From Alphaproteobacteria bacterium (lineage in GTDB: Bacteria > Pseudomonadota > Alphaproteobacteria > Rs-D84): a stretch of DNA of 63,743 bases. Below are positions 9,165 through 61,846 of the stretch, one piece after another; position 1 is the stretch's first letter, and every line of letters begins with the position of its first letter. The notes beneath the pieces were generated by a model. The model had not been told where the DNA came from, made no database searches, and saw only the letters and a program-made list of their open reading frames with translations. The translations under genes and the position numbers were made by a program. The stretch covers positions 1-63,743 of the forward strand of contig WRHR01000006.1 of NCBI GenBank assembly GCA_009783145.1, in the 5' to 3' direction.

Positions 9165-9190
9165 AAAACGCGGGCAAGCCCGCGTTTTTT
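9165..9190 (+). terminator. intrinsic terminator after the gcrA operon
   Basis: An ACGCGGG/CCCGCGT hairpin with an AA-containing loop, flanked by A and T runs, directly after the stop codon. Confidence 0.9.
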
Positions 9191-9325
9191 AATGACTAAT
9201 TACTAATGACTAATGTTTAATGTTTAATGATTAATGTATGACATATACGATGTCCTTTATAAAGGACAAGTATGAATTTTATTCACTGGTATTAGTAATT
9301 AGTAATTAGTCATTGGTCATTAAAA
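9191..9325. repeat. heptamer-arm hairpin element with GTCCTTTATAAAGGAC core
   Basis: The left arm (9191-9240) is tandem 7-mers of the TAATGAC/TAATGTT type. The right arm (9290-9325) is their complement (ATTAGTA/GTCATT type). The core palindrome GTCCTTTATAAAGGAC is at 9252-9267. The right arm supplies the last codons and stop of lpxB (MTND). Confidence 0.85.
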
Positions 9326-15341: not shown

Positions 15342-15451
15342 GTGAAGGTGAAGGTGAAAGGTGGATTAGAGAATATGAATAACATTGTCCTTTATAAAGG
15401 ACAACATATATTGTTGCGCTGACTCACATGCACTTTCACTTGCACTTGCAC
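15342..15451. repeat. hexamer-arm hairpin element with GTCCTTTATAAAGGAC core
   Basis: Left arm GTGAAG units (15342-15364), core palindrome at 15387-15402, then TTGTTGCGCTGACT, and a right arm of CTTTCAC/CTTGCA units (15429-15451) complementary to the left. Nearly the same layout as 45301-45412. Confidence 0.85.
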
Positions 15452-19504: not shown

Positions 19505-19580
19505 CCCATTAATGACTAATGACAAATGACTAATTGGGCGCTTATATTGGTCATTCGTAATTAGTCATTAGTCATTAAAA
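19505..19580. repeat. heptamer-arm hairpin element without core palindrome
   Basis: TAATGAC-type units on the left and their complement ATTAGTC on the right flank a short spacer (TTGGGCGCTTATATTGG). Confidence 0.75.
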
Positions 19581-33882: not shown

Positions 33883-33947
33883 TTTATCTTCCTATTAATA
33901 TTTGCTTAATTATACAAAATTTCCGCCTCCCGCGCAAGGGCAAAAGT

Positions 33948-34075
33948 CGCTAGTCGTTAGTAGCTAGTCGCTAGTCGCTAGTAGGTATGTGCCGATATGA
34001 ACATTGTCCATTATAAAGGACAATGCTATTTGTTGCGCCGACCCGCTAGCGACTAACGACTAGCTACTAGCGACT
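33948..34075. repeat. heptamer-arm hairpin element with GTCC...GGAC core
   Basis: Left arm of AGTCGCT-type 7-mers (33948-33985), core GTCCATTATAAAGGAC at 34006-34021, tail TTGTTGCGCCGACC, right arm of TAGCGAC-type 7-mers (34044-34075) complementary to the left. Confidence 0.9.
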
Positions 34076-34096
34076 ATTCGTGCTATAATATAGGCT

Positions 34097-35638
34097 ATGA
34101 AAACTCCACTTGTACTTTGCATATTGGACGGCGTCGGGATCAGCGCCGACAAAAAGCATAATGCGGTGGCAACCGCAAAGATGCCTTTCTATCAAAGGCT
34201 GCTGCGCGAATATCCGCACACGCGGTTAACTGCGCACGGACCGACGGTCGGCCTGCTGCCCGGAGCTATGGGAAACTCCGAAGTCGGGCATATCACGATC
34301 GGCAGCGGCCGCGTGGTGAATCAATTCCAGCGCAGATTTCAGATTGAAAACGAATCGGGGCGAATTGCCGCCAATCCGCGCCTGGTTAAATTCATCCGCG
34401 ACGTGAAAAAAGATGGCGGGATAGTGCACCTTTTGGGCTTGACGTCCGACATAGGCGTTCATTCGGATATTAACGAAGCGATTACGGTCGCGCGAATCGT
34501 TATGGCAGCGGGCCCGCGAATCTGTTTTCATTTTGTCGCTGATGGGCGCGACACTCCGCAAAAGGCCGCGGAAAAATATATACTGAAATTAAACCGCGCG
34601 TTTGCCAAAGAAATAAAAAGCGGGCAGCTTTTCTTCGGCACTTTGTCCGGACGGTATTACACGATGGACAGAAATCAGAATTGGGACAGGACGCAGCGCT
34701 CTTTTGACGCAATCGCGCTGGGACGCGCTGAATTTTCCGCGCCGGATATCACATCAGCATTGCGCGCCGCATACGCGCGCGGCGAAACTGATGAGTTTAT
34801 AAAGCCGACAATAATAAAAAACGACCTGTCCCCCGTAGCCTTGGCGAAGGGGGACGGATTGCTATTCACTAATTACCGCTCGGACCGCGCAAGGCAAATT
34901 CTGCAAGCCTTTTCCACCTGCTCCGTAATAAGCAATGTAAAGCGCCCTGCGAATTACGTTTCGCCGCATGTGCTCAGCTTTTCCGAGTATGGCGGAGAAA
35001 CGGACAACTGCGTCCCCGCCCTGCTGGCGGATATCCCGATTAAAAACACTCTGGGCGATGTGCTGGCCGCGCACGGTCTGCGCCAGCTGCGAATTTCCGA
35101 GACGGAAAAATATACTCATGCCACCTATTACTTCGACGGCGAGCGGACCATAGATTATCCGGGCGAAGAAAAGATTTTAATCCCCAGCGCGGACGTTTCC
35201 ACATTCGATTTAAAGCCCGAGATGTCGGCGGCCGAGATTACGGATAATGTCATGCGAAGGCTGGCGAAATACGATGTCATAATAATAAACTATCCCAACG
35301 GCGATATGATAGGGCATACGGGAATAATGTCCGCGGCAATAAAAGCAATGGAAACGCTGGACGCGCAGCTGGCGCGGCTGGTGCCCGCGGTTCTGAAGCT
35401 GGGCGGGACTATGCTTATAACGGCGGATCACGGAAGCGTTGAGAAAATGTGGGATGAAAAGCTGAATGTGGCCTGGACCGCGCATACCACGAATAAAGTT
35501 CCGTTTATTGTTGTTAGCGGCCTGCCACCCGTAGCCTTGGCGAAGGGTGGAGGTCTTTCCGACATCGCGCCGACGATACTGAAAATTCTGGGCTTAAAAC
35601 AGCCGAAAGAAATGACGGGGAAAAGTCTTATAAATTAA
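34097..35638 (+). CDS. gpmI: 2,3-bisphosphoglycerate-independent phosphoglycerate mutase
   Basis: Interconverts 3- and 2-phosphoglycerate in glycolysis. The 513 residues show the N-terminal metal site LCILDGVG, the phospho-Ser motif MGNSEVGH (about residues 58-65), ADGRDTPQ, and the C-terminal TADHGSVEKM with SDIAPTIL. Two in-frame palindromes (34829-34854 and 35525-35550) add LSPVALAKGDG and LPPVALAKGGG at loop positions. TATAAT at 34084-34089 ends 7 nt before the ATG and there is no Shine-Dalgarno, suggesting a leaderless message. Confidence 0.96.
   Translation: MKTPLVLCILDGVGISADKKHNAVATAKMPFYQRLLREYPHTRLTAHGPTVGLLPGAMGNSEVGHITIGSGRVVNQFQRRFQIENESGRIAANPRLVKFIRDVKKDGGIVHLLGLTSDIGVHSDINEAITVARIVMAAGPRICFHFVADGRDTPQKAAEKYILKLNRAFAKEIKSGQLFFGTLSGRYYTMDRNQNWDRTQRSFDAIALGRAEFSAPDITSALRAAYARGETDEFIKPTIIKNDLSPVALAKGDGLLFTNYRSDRARQILQAFSTCSVISNVKRPANYVSPHVLSFSEYGGETDNCVPALLADIPIKNTLGDVLAAHGLRQLRISETEKYTHATYYFDGERTIDYPGEEKILIPSADVSTFDLKPEMSAAEITDNVMRRLAKYDVIIINYPNGDMIGHTGIMSAAIKAMETLDAQLARLVPAVLKLGGTMLITADHGSVEKMWDEKLNVAWTAHTTNKVPFIVVSGLPPVALAKGGGLSDIAPTILKILGLKQPKEMTGKSLIN
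34829..34854. repeat. in-frame palindrome in gpmI, copy 1
   Basis: TCCCCC/GGGGGA arms around GCCTTGGC, read as SPVALAKGD at about residues 244-253. Confidence 0.9.
35525..35550. repeat. in-frame palindrome in gpmI, copy 2
   Basis: CCACCC/GGGTGG arms around GCCTTGGC, read as PPVALAKGG at about residues 477-485, just before SDIAPT. Confidence 0.9.
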
Positions 35639-35753
35639 CAATTAACAGATAACAATTAACAGTTATAGAGATAAATTAACCGTTGTCCATTATAAAGGAC
35701 AATGGCTTACATTGCTCTTCAATTGTTAATTGTTATCTGTTAATTGTTAATTT
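35636..35753. repeat. heptamer-arm hairpin element with GTCC...GGAC core
   Basis: Left arm TAACAAT/TAACAGA-type 7-mers, core GTCCATTATAAAGGAC at 35685-35700, right arm of complementary TTGTTAA/TCTGTTA-type 7-mers. It lies between gpmI and tadA. Confidence 0.9.
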
Positions 35754-36196
35754 ATTCTTCGTTTCCTAAAAAACTCCCGCAGCAACTCCGCCGATTCGGC
35801 GGCGAATTCCGGGACCTCTGCCACCTCCGGCTTCCACAGGTTTTTCTGAGTCTCATAAACCCGCGCGTTATGCAGTATTCCGCCGCCTTTCTCGTCCCGC
35901 GCGGCAAAGATGATTTTCTTTATTCGCGCGAATGAAATCGCCGTCGCGCACATTGCGCAAGGCTCCAAGCTTATATAAATCTCAGCATCGTCCAGGAATT
36001 TAGCGCCCAATTTTTTCGCGGCGCGGCGAATCGCGACTATCTCGGCATGCGCGGTGACATCGCGTTTCAATTGAACTTGATTCTCGCCGCGCGAAATGAT
36101 TTTCCCGCCCCGCACGATAACCGCGCCGACCGGCACGTCGCCATGCGACGCCGCTTTTTTCGCCAGCTTCAAAGTTTCTTTGATATATTGTTTCAT
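35747..36196 (-). CDS. tadA: tRNA-specific adenosine deaminase
   Basis: Converts A34 of tRNA-Arg(ACG) to inosine. The deaminase signature is complete: HAEIVAI (His and catalytic Glu, about residues 52-58) and EPCAMC (zinc Cys, about 82-87) in 149 residues. The start codon is only 19 bp from that of the divergent rsmD. The last codons abut a heptamer hairpin element. Confidence 0.95.
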   Translation of the reverse strand: MKQYIKETLKLAKKAASHGDVPVGAVIVRGGKIISRGENQVQLKRDVTAHAEIVAIRRAAKKLGAKFLDDAEIYISLEPCAMCATAISFARIKKIIFAARDEKGGGILHNARVYETQKNLWKPEVAEVPEFAAESAELLREFFRKRRIN

Positions 36197-36215: not shown

Positions 36216-36770
36216 ATGAATTCCAATTTGCAAATTATTTCGGGGAAATGGCGCGGCAAGAAATTGCACCTTCCCCCCAACGCCCGCCCGACGCAGAACA
36301 AAGCGCGCATAGCCTTATTTAATATGCTTGATGGTATTCTAGCGACTAGCGACTGCCGACTAGCGACTATTTGGGATGCGTTCGCGGGCAGCGGAGCGTT
36401 CGGAATCGAATTTTTATCGCGCGGCGCGCAAAAAGCGATTTTCACAGACACCGACGCAGAATCGATAAAAACAATTAAAAAGAATCTGGCGGGTTTGGAT
36501 GCGGCGCGCGCAGCCGTCGCACTGACGGACGCCACAGGCGCGATAAAAAAATACGGCGCGGATGCGGATATAATCTTCATCGATCCGCCTTATGCGCATC
36601 CTGAACTTGGCGCGCGATTCATAGAAAAACTGAGCGCCGCCGCAAAACCCGGCGCGATTATAGTTTGGGAAATGGAAAAAGATTTCGCCCCTGCCCCACT
36701 GCCGGAAAACTTGAAAATTTTGAAAGATAAAACTTACGGAAGAGCAAGGTTTTTAATAATTAGCAATTAG
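36216..36770 (+). CDS. rsmD: 16S rRNA (guanine966-N2)-methyltransferase
   Basis: Methylates G966 of 16S rRNA in the 30S subunit. 184 residues: N-terminal QIISGKWRGKKL and RPTQNKARIALFNML, SAM motif AFAGSGAFGIEFLSRGA, catalytic DPPY (IIFIDPPYAHPEL, about 125-137). Between residues 42 and 51 lies ATSDCRLATI, encoded by four TAGCGAC-type heptamers (36340-36367), a segment absent from typical RsmD. Confidence 0.93.
   Translation: MNSNLQIISGKWRGKKLHLPPNARPTQNKARIALFNMLDGILATSDCRLATIWDAFAGSGAFGIEFLSRGAQKAIFTDTDAESIKTIKKNLAGLDAARAAVALTDATGAIKKYGADADIIFIDPPYAHPELGARFIEKLSAAAKPGAIIVWEMEKDFAPAPLPENLKILKDKTYGRARFLIISN
36340..36367. repeat. four heptamers (TAGCGAC) inside rsmD
   Basis: Units TAGCGAC, TAGCGAC, TGCCGAC, TAGCGAC are in frame with the gene. 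The same 7-mer forms the hairpin arms at 34044-34075 and lies after the nifJ stop at 45885-45910. Confidence 0.9.
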
Positions 36771-36880
36771 CAATTATCAATTAGCGGTCTTGGTGGCGTT
36801 AATAGCATTGTCCAATATATTGGACATTTCATATCGTTGCATTTTTAATTGCTAATCGCTAATTGATAATTGCTAATTAA
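36757..36880. repeat. heptamer-arm hairpin element with GTCCAATATATTGGAC core
   Basis: CAATTAG-type 7-mers on the left and complementary AATTGCTA-type units on the right flank a perfect but sequence-different core palindrome (36810-36825) followed by CGTTGCA. Confidence 0.9.
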
Positions 36881-36900
36881 AAATCGCGAATTCGCGATTT

Positions 36901-38423: not shown

Positions 38424-38545
38424 TGGATGAGGGATGACGGATGATGGATGATGTAAAGTGATATAAGAATTATTTCTGAAAATTAAAAGAAAAAACTCTT
38501 ATTGTCCTTACATCATCCCTCATCAATCATCCGTCATCCATTGCG
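38424..38545. repeat. heptamer-arm hairpin element between lptC and lptB
   Basis: GATGGAT/GACGGAT-type 7-mers on the left (38424-38455) and complementary CATCC units on the right (38511-38543). The centre keeps only ATTGTCC of the usual core. Confidence 0.85.
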
Positions 38546-41176: not shown

Positions 41177-41203
41177 ACGCGGGCAAGCCCGCGTTTATTT
41201 TTT
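41175..41203 (+). terminator. intrinsic terminator
   Basis: AAACGCGGG/CCCGCGTTT hairpin followed by TATTTTTT at the end of the small membrane protein gene. Confidence 0.9.
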
Positions 41204-41298
41204 AATTAGCAATGCGCAAATAGCAATTAGCAAATGTGGCCGCGCGGCTACGCCGCGCACATTATTTGCTCTTTGCTCTTTGCTATTTGCTAATTTTT
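41204..41298. repeat. heptamer-arm hairpin element before ssb
   Basis: AATTAGC/AAATAGC-type 7-mers on the left and complementary TTTGCTC/TTTGCTA units on the right flank a GC-rich hairpin (GTGGCCGCGCGG...CCGCGCAC). The core is not the usual GTCC type. Confidence 0.8.
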
Positions 41299-45257: not shown

Positions 45258-45300
45258 GATTTGCATGTTATCATTTTTTTATTTGACAGCGCAAGGGTTA

Positions 45301-45415
45301 ATATGTGCAGGTGCAGGTAAAAAGTGAATGTGGATTAGAGAATATTAATAAGATTGTCCTTTATAAAGGACAATGCATATTGTTGCACTGACTTACCTGC
45401 ACTTGCACGAATTAC
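45301..45415. repeat. hexamer-arm hairpin element with GTCCTTTATAAAGGAC core
   Basis: GTGCAG units left, core palindrome at 45356-45371, TTGTTGCACTGACT, then complementary CTGCACTTGCAC right. The flanking GGATTAGAGAATAT is shared with 15361-15376. Confidence 0.9.
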
Positions 45416-59780: not shown

Positions 59781-61559
59781 TTAAATCTGCCCCGGCTCTT
59801 CCGTTTCGACTTCGGGCTGATGTATTTCCACGTCGCGGGTCATCGCAAAGAATTTCTCCGCGCGGCGCTGCGGCAGCTCAGCCGCAGGAATTTCTTGCAG
59901 CTCTTTCACGTTCTTTACGACCGCAGATGCAATCAATTCCATCGTCGTCTGCCAATCGGTATGCGCGCCGCGGCTGGGCTCTTTTATAATCTCGTCGATC
60001 GCGCCGACGGCCGCAAGGTCTTTTGCCGTCAGCTTCATAGCCGTTGCCGCTTCTTCTTTGAACTTGTTATCTCTCCAAAGAATCGTTGCGCAAGATTCCG
60101 GCGCGATGACCGAATAAATCGCGTTCTCCATCATCAGAACCCGGTCGCCGGTCGCGATCGCAATCGCGCCTCCGCTGCCGCCTTCGCCGACATTTACCGC
60201 AACGAACGGAGTCGCGAGTCTCAGGCCCGTTTCGATCGTGGCGGCGACGGCTTGGGATTGGCCGCGCTCTTCCCCTTCCCTGCCCGCGAACGCTCCGGAT
60301 GTATCGAACAGCGAAATCAGCGGCAAGGTGAATTTTTCCGCCAAACGCATCAAGCGCTGGGCCTTGCGGTATCCTTCCGGGGTGGCCATTCCAAAGCGGT
60401 ATTTCTGGCGCGTCGCGATATCGCGGCCTTTTTCCTGACCTATGATGACTGATGGAATTCCGCGAAAATATCCGATTCCTCCCTGCATCGCCGGGTCTTC
60501 GCCGAACAGCCTGTCGCCCGCCAAAGGCGTCCAATCCGCAACCAGCACGCGGATATAATCCAAAAAGTGCGGACGGTTTTCGTTGCGCGCCAGCAAGACT
60601 TTTTCATAAGCCTCTGCCTTTGCCGCCGCGGCCGTTTTCGTTTTCGTTTTGCTTTTCGTCGTGTGGATAAGCGCCTTTGGGGTATCCGCGGAAATCGGCG
60701 CGGGCTCGGCCGTCGGCCGCCGGGTCAAGACTTTTAATATCTTCTCCAGATTAGCTTTCATCTCGCCGCGCCCCGACACCATATCCACCATGCCATGGTC
60801 GTACATATAGTCCGCAGTCTGGAAATTCGAGGGCAATTTCTCGCGCATATTCTGCTCGATAACGCGCCGGCCCGCAAAGCCGATCCGCGCGCCTTTTTCC
60901 GCGATATGAATATCCCCAAGCATCGCAAACGACGCCGTGACGCCGCCGAATGTCGGATCCGCAAGAATTACTATATAAGGAATTTTTGCCGCATGCAGCT
61001 TATTCACCGCCGCGGTCGTGCGCGCCATCTGCATCAGCGACAAGATATTTTCCTGCATGCGCGCGCCGCCACTGGTGGTTATCATAATATACGGCTGCTT
61101 TTTTTCTATGGAGTGCTCTATGCTCGCGATGATTCCGTCGCCCACAGAGCGCCCCATGGACCCCAGCATAAAGTCCGGATTCAATACCGCGATTGTGACC
61201 GGAATTCCGCCGACTTTACCAATTGCCGCGCCCAGCGCATCGGGGCGGCCCGTATCTTCGCGCGCTTCGGCCAAGCGTTCCTTGTACGGCATCCGGTCGC
61301 AGAAGTTCAAAGGATCGTCGGACGCGACGGGCAGCTCTATGCGCTCCCACGCGTTGTCGTCGAACAGCAGGTCGAAACGTTGTTTCGGCGTCATCGAGAA
61401 AGCATGCCCGCATTTCGGGCAAATATAAAGGTTGGTCTTATAGTCTTTATAATAGACCAGCTTGCCGCAGGCTTCGCATTTTATCCACATCAGTTTTTTG
61501 ACGCGCTCGTACTTTTCACGCTTGTGGCTTTTGATGCCGGGCGCTTTGAGTTTCCACAT
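59781..61559 (-). CDS. accDA: fused acetyl-CoA carboxylase carboxyltransferase (beta + alpha)
   Basis: Transfers carboxyl from biotin to acetyl-CoA, the first step of fatty acid synthesis. Usually two proteins, AccD and AccA; here one chain of 592 residues. The beta part has the zinc finger (Cys 28, 31, 47, 50: CEACGK...CPKCGH) and TTSGGARMQEN, FGGVTASFAM. A repeat-like Lys/Thr/Ala linker (KSKTKTKTAAAAKAEA) follows, then the alpha part with RVLVADWTPLAGDRLFGEDPA, FDTSGAFAGREGEERGQ and VGEGGSGGAIAIA. The ATG at 61559 starts 2 nt after the IHF/HU gene. Confidence 0.95.
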   Translation of the reverse strand: MWKLKAPGIKSHKREKYERVKKLMWIKCEACGKLVYYKDYKTNLYICPKCGHAFSMTPKQRFDLLFDDNAWERIELPVASDDPLNFCDRMPYKERLAEAREDTGRPDALGAAIGKVGGIPVTIAVLNPDFMLGSMGRSVGDGIIASIEHSIEKKQPYIMITTSGGARMQENILSLMQMARTTAAVNKLHAAKIPYIVILADPTFGGVTASFAMLGDIHIAEKGARIGFAGRRVIEQNMREKLPSNFQTADYMYDHGMVDMVSGRGEMKANLEKILKVLTRRPTAEPAPISADTPKALIHTTKSKTKTKTAAAAKAEAYEKVLLARNENRPHFLDYIRVLVADWTPLAGDRLFGEDPAMQGGIGYFRGIPSVIIGQEKGRDIATRQKYRFGMATPEGYRKAQRLMRLAEKFTLPLISLFDTSGAFAGREGEERGQSQAVAATIETGLRLATPFVAVNVGEGGSGGAIAIATGDRVLMMENAIYSVIAPESCATILWRDNKFKEEAATAMKLTAKDLAAVGAIDEIIKEPSRGAHTDWQTTMELIASAVVKNVKELQEIPAAELPQRRAEKFFAMTRDVEIHQPEVETEEPGQI

Positions 61560-61561
61560 AA

Positions 61562-61846
61562 TCAATCTCCACCGTTCATTTTTTTTATCAGCTCTCTGCT
61601 GGGTCGAAACAGGACCGAACGCCGCGCAGGCAGGCGCATTTTGGCGCCGGTGCGCGGGTTGACGGTGGCCTTGGCCGCATGGACGCGCGTTTGAAAAGTG
61701 CCGAAACCGCGAATTTCAACGCGGTCGCCAGCGTGTGCGGCGTCACACAGGCGCTTGGAAACACAATCCACCATCGCGGCGGCATCCGCCGAGGAAAGGC
61801 GCCCGAACTTAACCTGCACTGAACGAACAATATCGGAACGTTTCAT
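61562..61846 (-). CDS. IHF/HU-family DNA-bending protein
   Basis: 94 residues: KRSDIVRSVQVKFGRLSSAD, VEIRGFGTFQTRVHAAKATVNPRTGAKMRLPARRSVLFRPSRELI. The GFGTF and NPRTG motifs mark the family, and the Arg-rich region fits the IHF beta subunit better than HU. GAGGA precedes the ATG. It is followed immediately by accDA, an unusual pairing. Confidence 0.9.
   Translation of the reverse strand: MKRSDIVRSVQVKFGRLSSADAAAMVDCVSKRLCDAAHAGDRVEIRGFGTFQTRVHAAKATVNPRTGAKMRLPARRSVLFRPSRELIKKMNGGD

Follow-up and report, generated by a model that had tools for sequence, protein, structure and literature searches.

The window analysed here, a stretch of 63,743 nucleotides, is contig C6 of a 947-kb alphaproteobacterial draft genome (G000; 24 contigs, 92% complete), whose relatives we take from their isolate labels to be gut (termite) samples. 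Nine of its spacers, at 9191, 15342, 19505, 33948, 35636, 36757, 38424, 41204 and 45301, had been singled out in the initial annotation as hairpins with arms of short tandem units, and all nine are present as described (Table 1). Their arms pair with scores of 13 to 36; when set against 2,759 random window positions, eight of the nine exceed 99% of them (empirical p 0.0004 to 0.007), and the spacer at 15342 pairs weakly (p 0.036). The GTCC-N8-GGAC core attributed to six of the spacers is found in six. A sequence check of the window spacers gave no such core at 19505 or 41204, and the spacer at 38424 holds a half core only, TTATTGTCCTTA. Two genes elsewhere in the window are recorded in passing: a 542-aa large serine recombinase (606-2234; XisF/CcrB-like matches, below cut-offs) adjoins a tRNA gene cluster, and a 594-aa ORF (59781-61565) has an AccD match in the first half and an AccA match in the second, and so is a fused acetyl-CoA carboxyltransferase.

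Table 1. Hairpin elements of the window, with the arms and core palindromes of each
Feature	Position	Strand	Basis
Left arm, 9191 element, TAATGAC units	9189..9239	.	hairpin scan
Core ATGTCCTTTATAAAGGACAA, 9191 element	9250..9269	.	core search
Right arm, 9191 element	9291..9325	.	hairpin and pairing analysis
Left arm, 15342 element, GTGAAG hexads, weak pairing (p 0.036)	15342..15371	.	pairing analysis
Core TTGTCCTTTATAAAGGACAA, 15342 element	15385..15404	.	core search
Right arm, 15342 element	15423..15451	.	pairing analysis
TAATGAC hairpin without core	19507..19578	.	hairpin scan
Left arm, 33948 element, tandem 7-bp TAGT-NNN units	33945..33988	.	repeat and pairing analysis
Core palindrome TTGTCCATTATAAAGGACAA, 33948 element, proposed HTH operator	34004..34023	.	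core search
Right arm, 33948 element, inverted TAGT-NNN units	34041..34076	.	hairpin and pairing analysis
Left arm, 35636 element, TTAACAA units	35632..35665	.	hairpin scan
Core TTGTCCATTATAAAGGACAA, 35636 element	35683..35702	.	core search
Right arm, 35636 element	35715..35755	.	hairpin scan
Left arm, 36757 element, ATTAGCA units	36752..36786	.	hairpin scan
Core TTGTCCAATATATTGGACAT, 36757 element	36808..36827	.	core search
Right arm, 36757 element	36851..36883	.	hairpin scan
GATGGAT hairpin, half core TTATTGTCCTTA only in loop	38419..38541	.	hairpin and pairing analysis
ATTAGCA/AAATAGC hairpin, GC-rich palindrome loop, no core	41202..41297 (end by eye)	.	pairing analysis
Left arm, 45301 element, GTGCAG hexads	45299..45320	.	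pairing analysis
Core TTGTCCTTTATAAAGGACAA, 45301 element	45354..45373	.	core search
Right arm, 45301 element	45393..45414	.	pairing analysis

A search of G000 for the palindrome TTGTCCWWTATAWWGGACAA with at most three mismatches returned 45 sites, and the reversed-pattern control returned none. The sites occur in all gene orientations, divergent spacers included, and are mostly intergenic; five lie inside an ORF of at least 100 aa as judged by crude longest-ORF calling, and two of these five are probably chance sites. Arms of the same unit type flank 32 of the 45 cores on both sides (families grouped by eye). The 13 cores that lack matched arms of their own comprise four in one array on contig C15, which share a single arm pair, two at C5:24651/24747, which also share one pair, three beside a second palindrome with arms that are poor or of another type (C1:86386, C2:58303, C2:87004), one with mismatched arms (C18:10654), one with no arms (C17:12015), and two matches that are probably due to chance (C1:117882 and C13:17630). 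Matching of the two arms within a locus is thus nearly, yet not strictly, universal. A GTTGC motif adjoins 25 of the 45 cores in either orientation, and when oriented by this motif the inner part consists of ∼22 bp, the 20-bp core and ∼20 bp. The best-kept inner segment is GAATAACA-core-TGCNTATTGTTGCA, and the arms begin at nearly fixed distances from the core. This constant spacing argues against random insertion of a ∼62-bp unit into loops of varied size. In several elements the core is accompanied by another perfect palindrome, TTCTAGTATACTAGAA, whose outer bases are symmetric and which is up to 38 bp long (C1:86386, C2:58303, C2:87004, C5:24747 and C18:10654; L020, L025, L028, L032 and L047); it is also found downstream of pgm in G031.

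The core is not confined to G000. Across 60 genomes, G000 included, sites with at most two mismatches are found at least once in 25 and three or more times in 11; the same-genus genome G001 has none under this threshold. Direct repeats such as CTACATATACACTACATA (GACATATACCGGACATAG in G012) flank array cores in several genera (L060, L083, L090, L075, L123) and look like accessory binding sites. Five stretches of viral contigs match the core, and by eye none of them are arrays; matches in Flavobacterium, Polaribacter and Lederbergia were put aside, also by eye, as probable chance. Patescibacteria records (Kaiserbacteria, Nomurabacteria, Paceibacterota) contain the exact palindrome, and on Kaiserbacteria/Paceibacterota contigs it is near TGTCCTTTA half-sites and TGTGGATAA-like motifs (L113, L115, L118, L131, L132). 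The latter motifs, beside several of these cores, resemble DnaA boxes; the setting is different, and the Patescibacteria cores are possibly an unrelated origin-region signal.

The arms of the 45 G000 cores with their flanks were assigned by eye to about nine unit families (ATTA-GCA, TAGT-CGC, GCG-AAAC, GTGCAG, TAGGAAG, TAATGAC, TTAACAA, TCGT-NAA and GATTTAC). Each left arm was compared by local alignment with every reverse-complemented right arm. Over all 45 loci, arms of the same locus score a mean of 19.5 versus 10.2 for arms of other loci, and arms of different families score ∼8 to 10. Within a family, arms of the same locus score 23.7 versus 25.5 across loci (29 loci, 6 families; Mann-Whitney p 0.19). 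Arms of one locus thus match each other no better than they match arms of the same family elsewhere, which argues against copying locus by locus. The initial annotation had described a conserved core with arms that were specific to each locus, as if some activity copied the repeat of one side to the other. The core is indeed conserved, and its arms are interchangeable and complementary to each other. The genome-wide extraction that had been proposed as a check gave arms of one unit type at 32 of 45 sites but did not uphold locus-specificity: each unit family is met with at many loci, and nothing points to copying at single loci. Nor do core and arms form a single composite element. Cores without arms had been named as counting against such a composite, and this is borne out in part: C17:12015 and the C15 array's inner cores lack arms belonging to them, and coreless hairpins are many: seven 20-kb stretches of G000 (140 kb) hold 15 of them versus none in shuffles, a count that is not a genome-wide rate because these stretches are mostly core-free parts. 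We consider it quite probable that the arms form a class of dispersed foldback repeats distinct from the core.

Tandem-unit hairpins were absent from 97.7 kb of G001, from 40 kb each of G035 and G011, and from 20 kb of G020; 40 kb of G003 contained two. All six window elements that can be compared (33948, 35636, 36757, 38424, 41204 and 45301) are missing from the corresponding spacers of G001, which is syntenic with window positions 20138-62051, and by this comparison the hairpins are recent gains of G000. In other genera, unrelated tandem-unit hairpins stand beside the same gene, with a core in G031 and without one in G003. By eye, the empty G001 sites offer no clear target-site duplication, and no transposase could be tied to the hairpin elements. 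The arm unit at 35636 is suggestive of derivation from the target, with ATTAAC present in the G001 spacer; comparison with the G001 spacers gave no evidence of this at 33948, 36757 or 45301. We note that two TTAACAA elements, C5:64001 (L033) and window 35683, have identical arms and visibly diverged inner parts, which suggests slower change in the arms than in the sequence they enclose. SbcD was found above the family cut-off in none of 40 relatives, with two weak matches; since genomes with and without hairpins share this permissive background, it does not by itself explain the hairpins.

Cores form clusters in several genomes, separated by single genes. Across 20 scanned array stretches there are 35 core-core intervals of 120-2,600 bp, a tally in which two units of L076 were merged because the unit finder overlooked a core with one mismatch. 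Many intervals consist of one gene that stops 4-20 bp short of the following core; further intervals are long, ORF-free or multi-gene. The units occur in both orientations, their products include chorismate mutase, short-chain dehydrogenase, serine hydrolase and Nmad3, and a 226-aa gene is common to units of G012 and G024 (62% identity). In G000 itself, three core-bounded units lie within a single TAATGAC hairpin on C15. Two convergent genes enclose a core in L187 (near 2543) and in L189 (near 3978), each stop being 4-8 bp away from it, and there the core is not merely the promoter of a neighbour. The element with mismatched arms, C18:10654, is a chimera, its left half a TAGG element like that at C1:124050 and its right half a TAGT element like those at 34004 and C11:31402, joined at the core. 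Together these boundaries make it likely that the core is a junction at which single-gene units were joined and exchanged, presumably by recombination. A class A beta-lactamase-like domain is encoded by a gene of G012 (L075:18566-19465) that adjoins a core cluster.

The most widely shared core-bounded unit encodes a 101-aa helix-turn-helix (HTH) protein, present in seven copies in 6 of the 201 genomes of the order and in five genera. Every copy has a core 35-41 bp before its ATG and another 4-68 bp after its stop, and every copy has the promoter TTGTC(C/T)-17 bp-TATAAT, with the palindrome filling the spacer. Pairwise local scores are 145 inside the unit (15.6 when shuffled) and fall to shuffle level in the 150-bp flanks, at 12.5 and 11.6 (12.2 and 9.6 when shuffled), with the 3' pair G012/G008 (score 49) as the sole exception; homology between the units ends at the cores. 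The five units inspected hold a single gene and no paired toxin gene. The G000 protein scores 23.0 bits with the HI1420 antidote family (TIGR02684, PF21716), below the cut-offs of 53.7 and 27; further relatives were not confirmed in viral contigs, nor found in plasmids or, by sequence search, among solved structures. A structure model, which at a mean pLDDT of 61.4 serves only as a guide, places predicted helices at residues 56-62 and 67-73 in a helix-turn-helix, the second being the predicted recognition helix. With this poor model, Foldseek gave no PDB fold match with E below 1; the best match is the HipB-operator complex 4z5h (E 1.5, probability 0.69), followed by several more HipB entries, none of them significant by itself.

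The predicted recognition helix and the palindrome change together. The helix SKSGFYN accompanies a GTCC-TT palindrome in G000, G008 and G012, SKSGFYK accompanies GTCC-AC in G024:C15 and G028, SRPGFYN accompanies GTCT-AA in G024:C12, and SRAGFYK accompanies GTCT-AC in G006. At the inner palindrome positions, N72 tracks TT/AA or AA/TT and K72 tracks AC/GT; SK tracks GTCC and SR(P/A) tracks GTCT. Residues 67, 68 and 72 thus covary with the palindrome over four dialects in seven copies, three of which come from one genus. As this pairing predicts, G006 has 11 GTCT-AC sites and no GTCC-type site, and the GTCT-AC dialect has no site in G000, G008, G012 or the sister genome G017. The initial annotation had proposed a search for a protein whose binding tracks the core, and this HTH protein is a putative answer, its recognition helix covarying with the core. 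We hold it probable that the core is the operator of a small XRE/HipB-like HTH protein. A simple one-to-one rule is opposed by G011, where nine GTCT-AC sites occur without the protein. As the reader of all cores the protein was rejected, since it was not found in the core-rich G011 (17 sites), G013 (27) or G014 (12); in such genomes the core is read by other proteins, or else HTH binding is of secondary importance. In G031 (14 sites) a C-terminal fragment alone was found, fused to another ORF: the last 28 residues of a GNAT-like ORF (by eye; L123:3923-4228) are nearly identical to the HTH C-terminus, and by this identity its tail is a fused remnant of an HTH unit. Among the hairpin cores of G000 the HTH dialect, TTTATAAA, is in the minority. 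A -10-like hexamer (at most 2 mismatches, 16-18 bp away, on one side) lies beside 36 of the 45 G000 cores versus 16.9 for shuffled flanks, which suggests that hairpin cores may act as promoters too.

At even chances, we propose that the core is a mobile XRE/HipB-like promoter-operator palindrome and single-gene-unit junction that has become lodged in separate foldback repeats. In the core TTGTCC-NNTATANN-GGACAA, TTGTCC would be the -35 box, with the -10 box 17 bp on, and a dimer of the small XRE-type (HI1420/HipB-like) protein would bind the core and repress from it. The gene of this protein lies, in five genera, in a unit with the palindrome at both ends, and the palindrome would be the junction at which units were joined and exchanged, among them the HTH gene, chorismate mutase, short-chain dehydrogenase, Nmad3 and others. 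The arms would be lineage-specific dispersed foldback repeats of degenerate 6-8-bp tandem units, with the ∼62-bp core-bearing unit sitting in the loop of many of them. They would pair because every unit family propagates in hairpin form, not through copying at each locus, and the hairpins may be tolerated because the order yielded no SbcD above the family cut-off. A further step, which we offer as a tentative possibility, is that these parts make up a new mobile cassette system, with genes exchanged at a palindrome that is also the promoter-operator of an HTH protein carried on a cassette. An incoming gene would then receive promoter, repressor site and point of crossover from a single 20-bp palindrome, the dialects of palindrome and protein would coevolve, and the one-core hairpins would be empty platforms scattered for cassettes, of which C15 holds three.

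The core might instead be foremost a site-specific recombination site for cassettes of the integron or pdif kind, served perhaps by the host XerC/XerD, with promoter activity and HTH binding as by-products. Units bounded by cores on both sides and in both orientations, stops that often lie 4-20 bp from a core, homology that stops at cores, the chimera joined at a core, the varied accessory genes and the presence of tyrosine recombinases in 59 of 60 genomes all fit this account. We nevertheless regard it as unlikely, because the inner pair of the core changes symmetrically and with the HTH protein, unlike a crossover region, and because no recombinase gene was seen in the arrays examined and no class of recombinase (tyrosine, serine or Y1_Tnp) follows core number. 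Tyrosine recombinases were rejected as the actor, being near-universal and by eye uncorrelated in count with the number of cores; serine recombinases are absent from G011, which has 17 cores. No integron integrase was seen in the array stretches examined, and by eye the core appears to lack the attC box.

The remaining accounts concern the hairpins as such. Dispersed, mostly intergenic and species-specific elements are what ordinary REP- or MITE-like palindromic repeats would give, and promoter-bearing MITEs with internal tandem repeats have been described (PMC4596501); the likeness to HTH unit boundaries would then be incidental. This is improbable given that the palindrome stands at both ends of 7/7 HTH units and that the recognition helix covaries with it, and G000 has no Y1_Tnp. 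The REP/RAYT reading itself was rejected on a search for the Y1_Tnp/RAYT (HUH transposase) family, with no match in G000 and one in 6 of 60 genomes. Copying within a locus, by template switching or palindrome correction, would keep the arms alike, and the shared unit type at 32 of 45 sites, the symmetric variation of both the core and the second palindrome across G000 elements and the SbcD result in 40 genomes are in its favor; the equal likeness of arms across loci of a family and the often unlike unit order of the two arms, as at 34004, make it very improbable. A further reading, which we hold highly improbable, takes the elements for structured RNAs, such as terminators, riboregulators or a fold of ribozyme type, in which a variable stem closes off inner loops that are conserved. 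Arms that vary and still pair, at fixed distances from the core and around a conserved inner segment, are as expected of such RNAs, but an Rfam scan of the window matched tRNAs only, the elements lie in all gene orientations, in the HTH units the core is part of a promoter and so acts as duplex DNA, and arms exist without the inner part.

If the proposed promoter-operator junction is real, gene gain in this reduced-genome alphaproteobacterial family would run via operator palindromes that combine regulation and capture in one short site. The dialect series would be a natural code for how a few XRE recognition-helix residues read DNA, and the arm families would let one test in nature how foldback repeats of tandem units originate and spread where the SbcD nuclease is not detected. 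The open-access literature that we searched contains no description of such elements, which does not prove their absence from print.

Each part of the arrangement has a known counterpart. The operator consensus of HipB is TATCCN8GGATA (PMC3376134; PMC4655474), and the core TGTCC-N8-GGACA shares with it inverted TNTCC half-sites at 8-bp spacing. As with HipB/HigA-type XRE antitoxins, an HTH dimer is proposed here and the operator overlaps the regulator's own promoter; by sequence our protein resembles the HI1420 antidote family alone, with a score under the cut-off. The present HTH unit differs in having no toxin gene, and its operator recurs at dozens of genomic sites and at both ends of other gene units. 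Integron cassettes and pdif modules are likewise compact single-gene units with varied accessory genes, joined at a short site and shared between genera; in our units a short common site stands at both ends and presumably recombines. They differ in that our site is a perfect promoter-operator palindrome, that the HTH units carry their own promoter, and that no recombinase is tied to the core. REP/REPIN-RAYT systems share the dispersed palindromes in spacers, but the arms here are not conserved. The Beggiatoaceae TAACTGA heptanucleotide, also a 7-bp tandem unit in spacers, occurs nearly always as direct repeats of one unit (PMC4679880), with no inverted pairs around a core there, unlike the G000 elements. 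The foldback elements FB and Galileo are dispersed inverted repeats of tandem repeats, and the foldback/MITE features of long inverted tandem-repeat arms, dispersed copies and empty sites are all present here. The BrickBuilt MITE of Porphyromonas gingivalis, according to PMC4596501, is likewise dispersed and built of tandem repeats, intergenic and with bidirectional promoter activity. In contrast to both, about nine unrelated families of 6-8-bp units in one genome here enclose the same inner unit.
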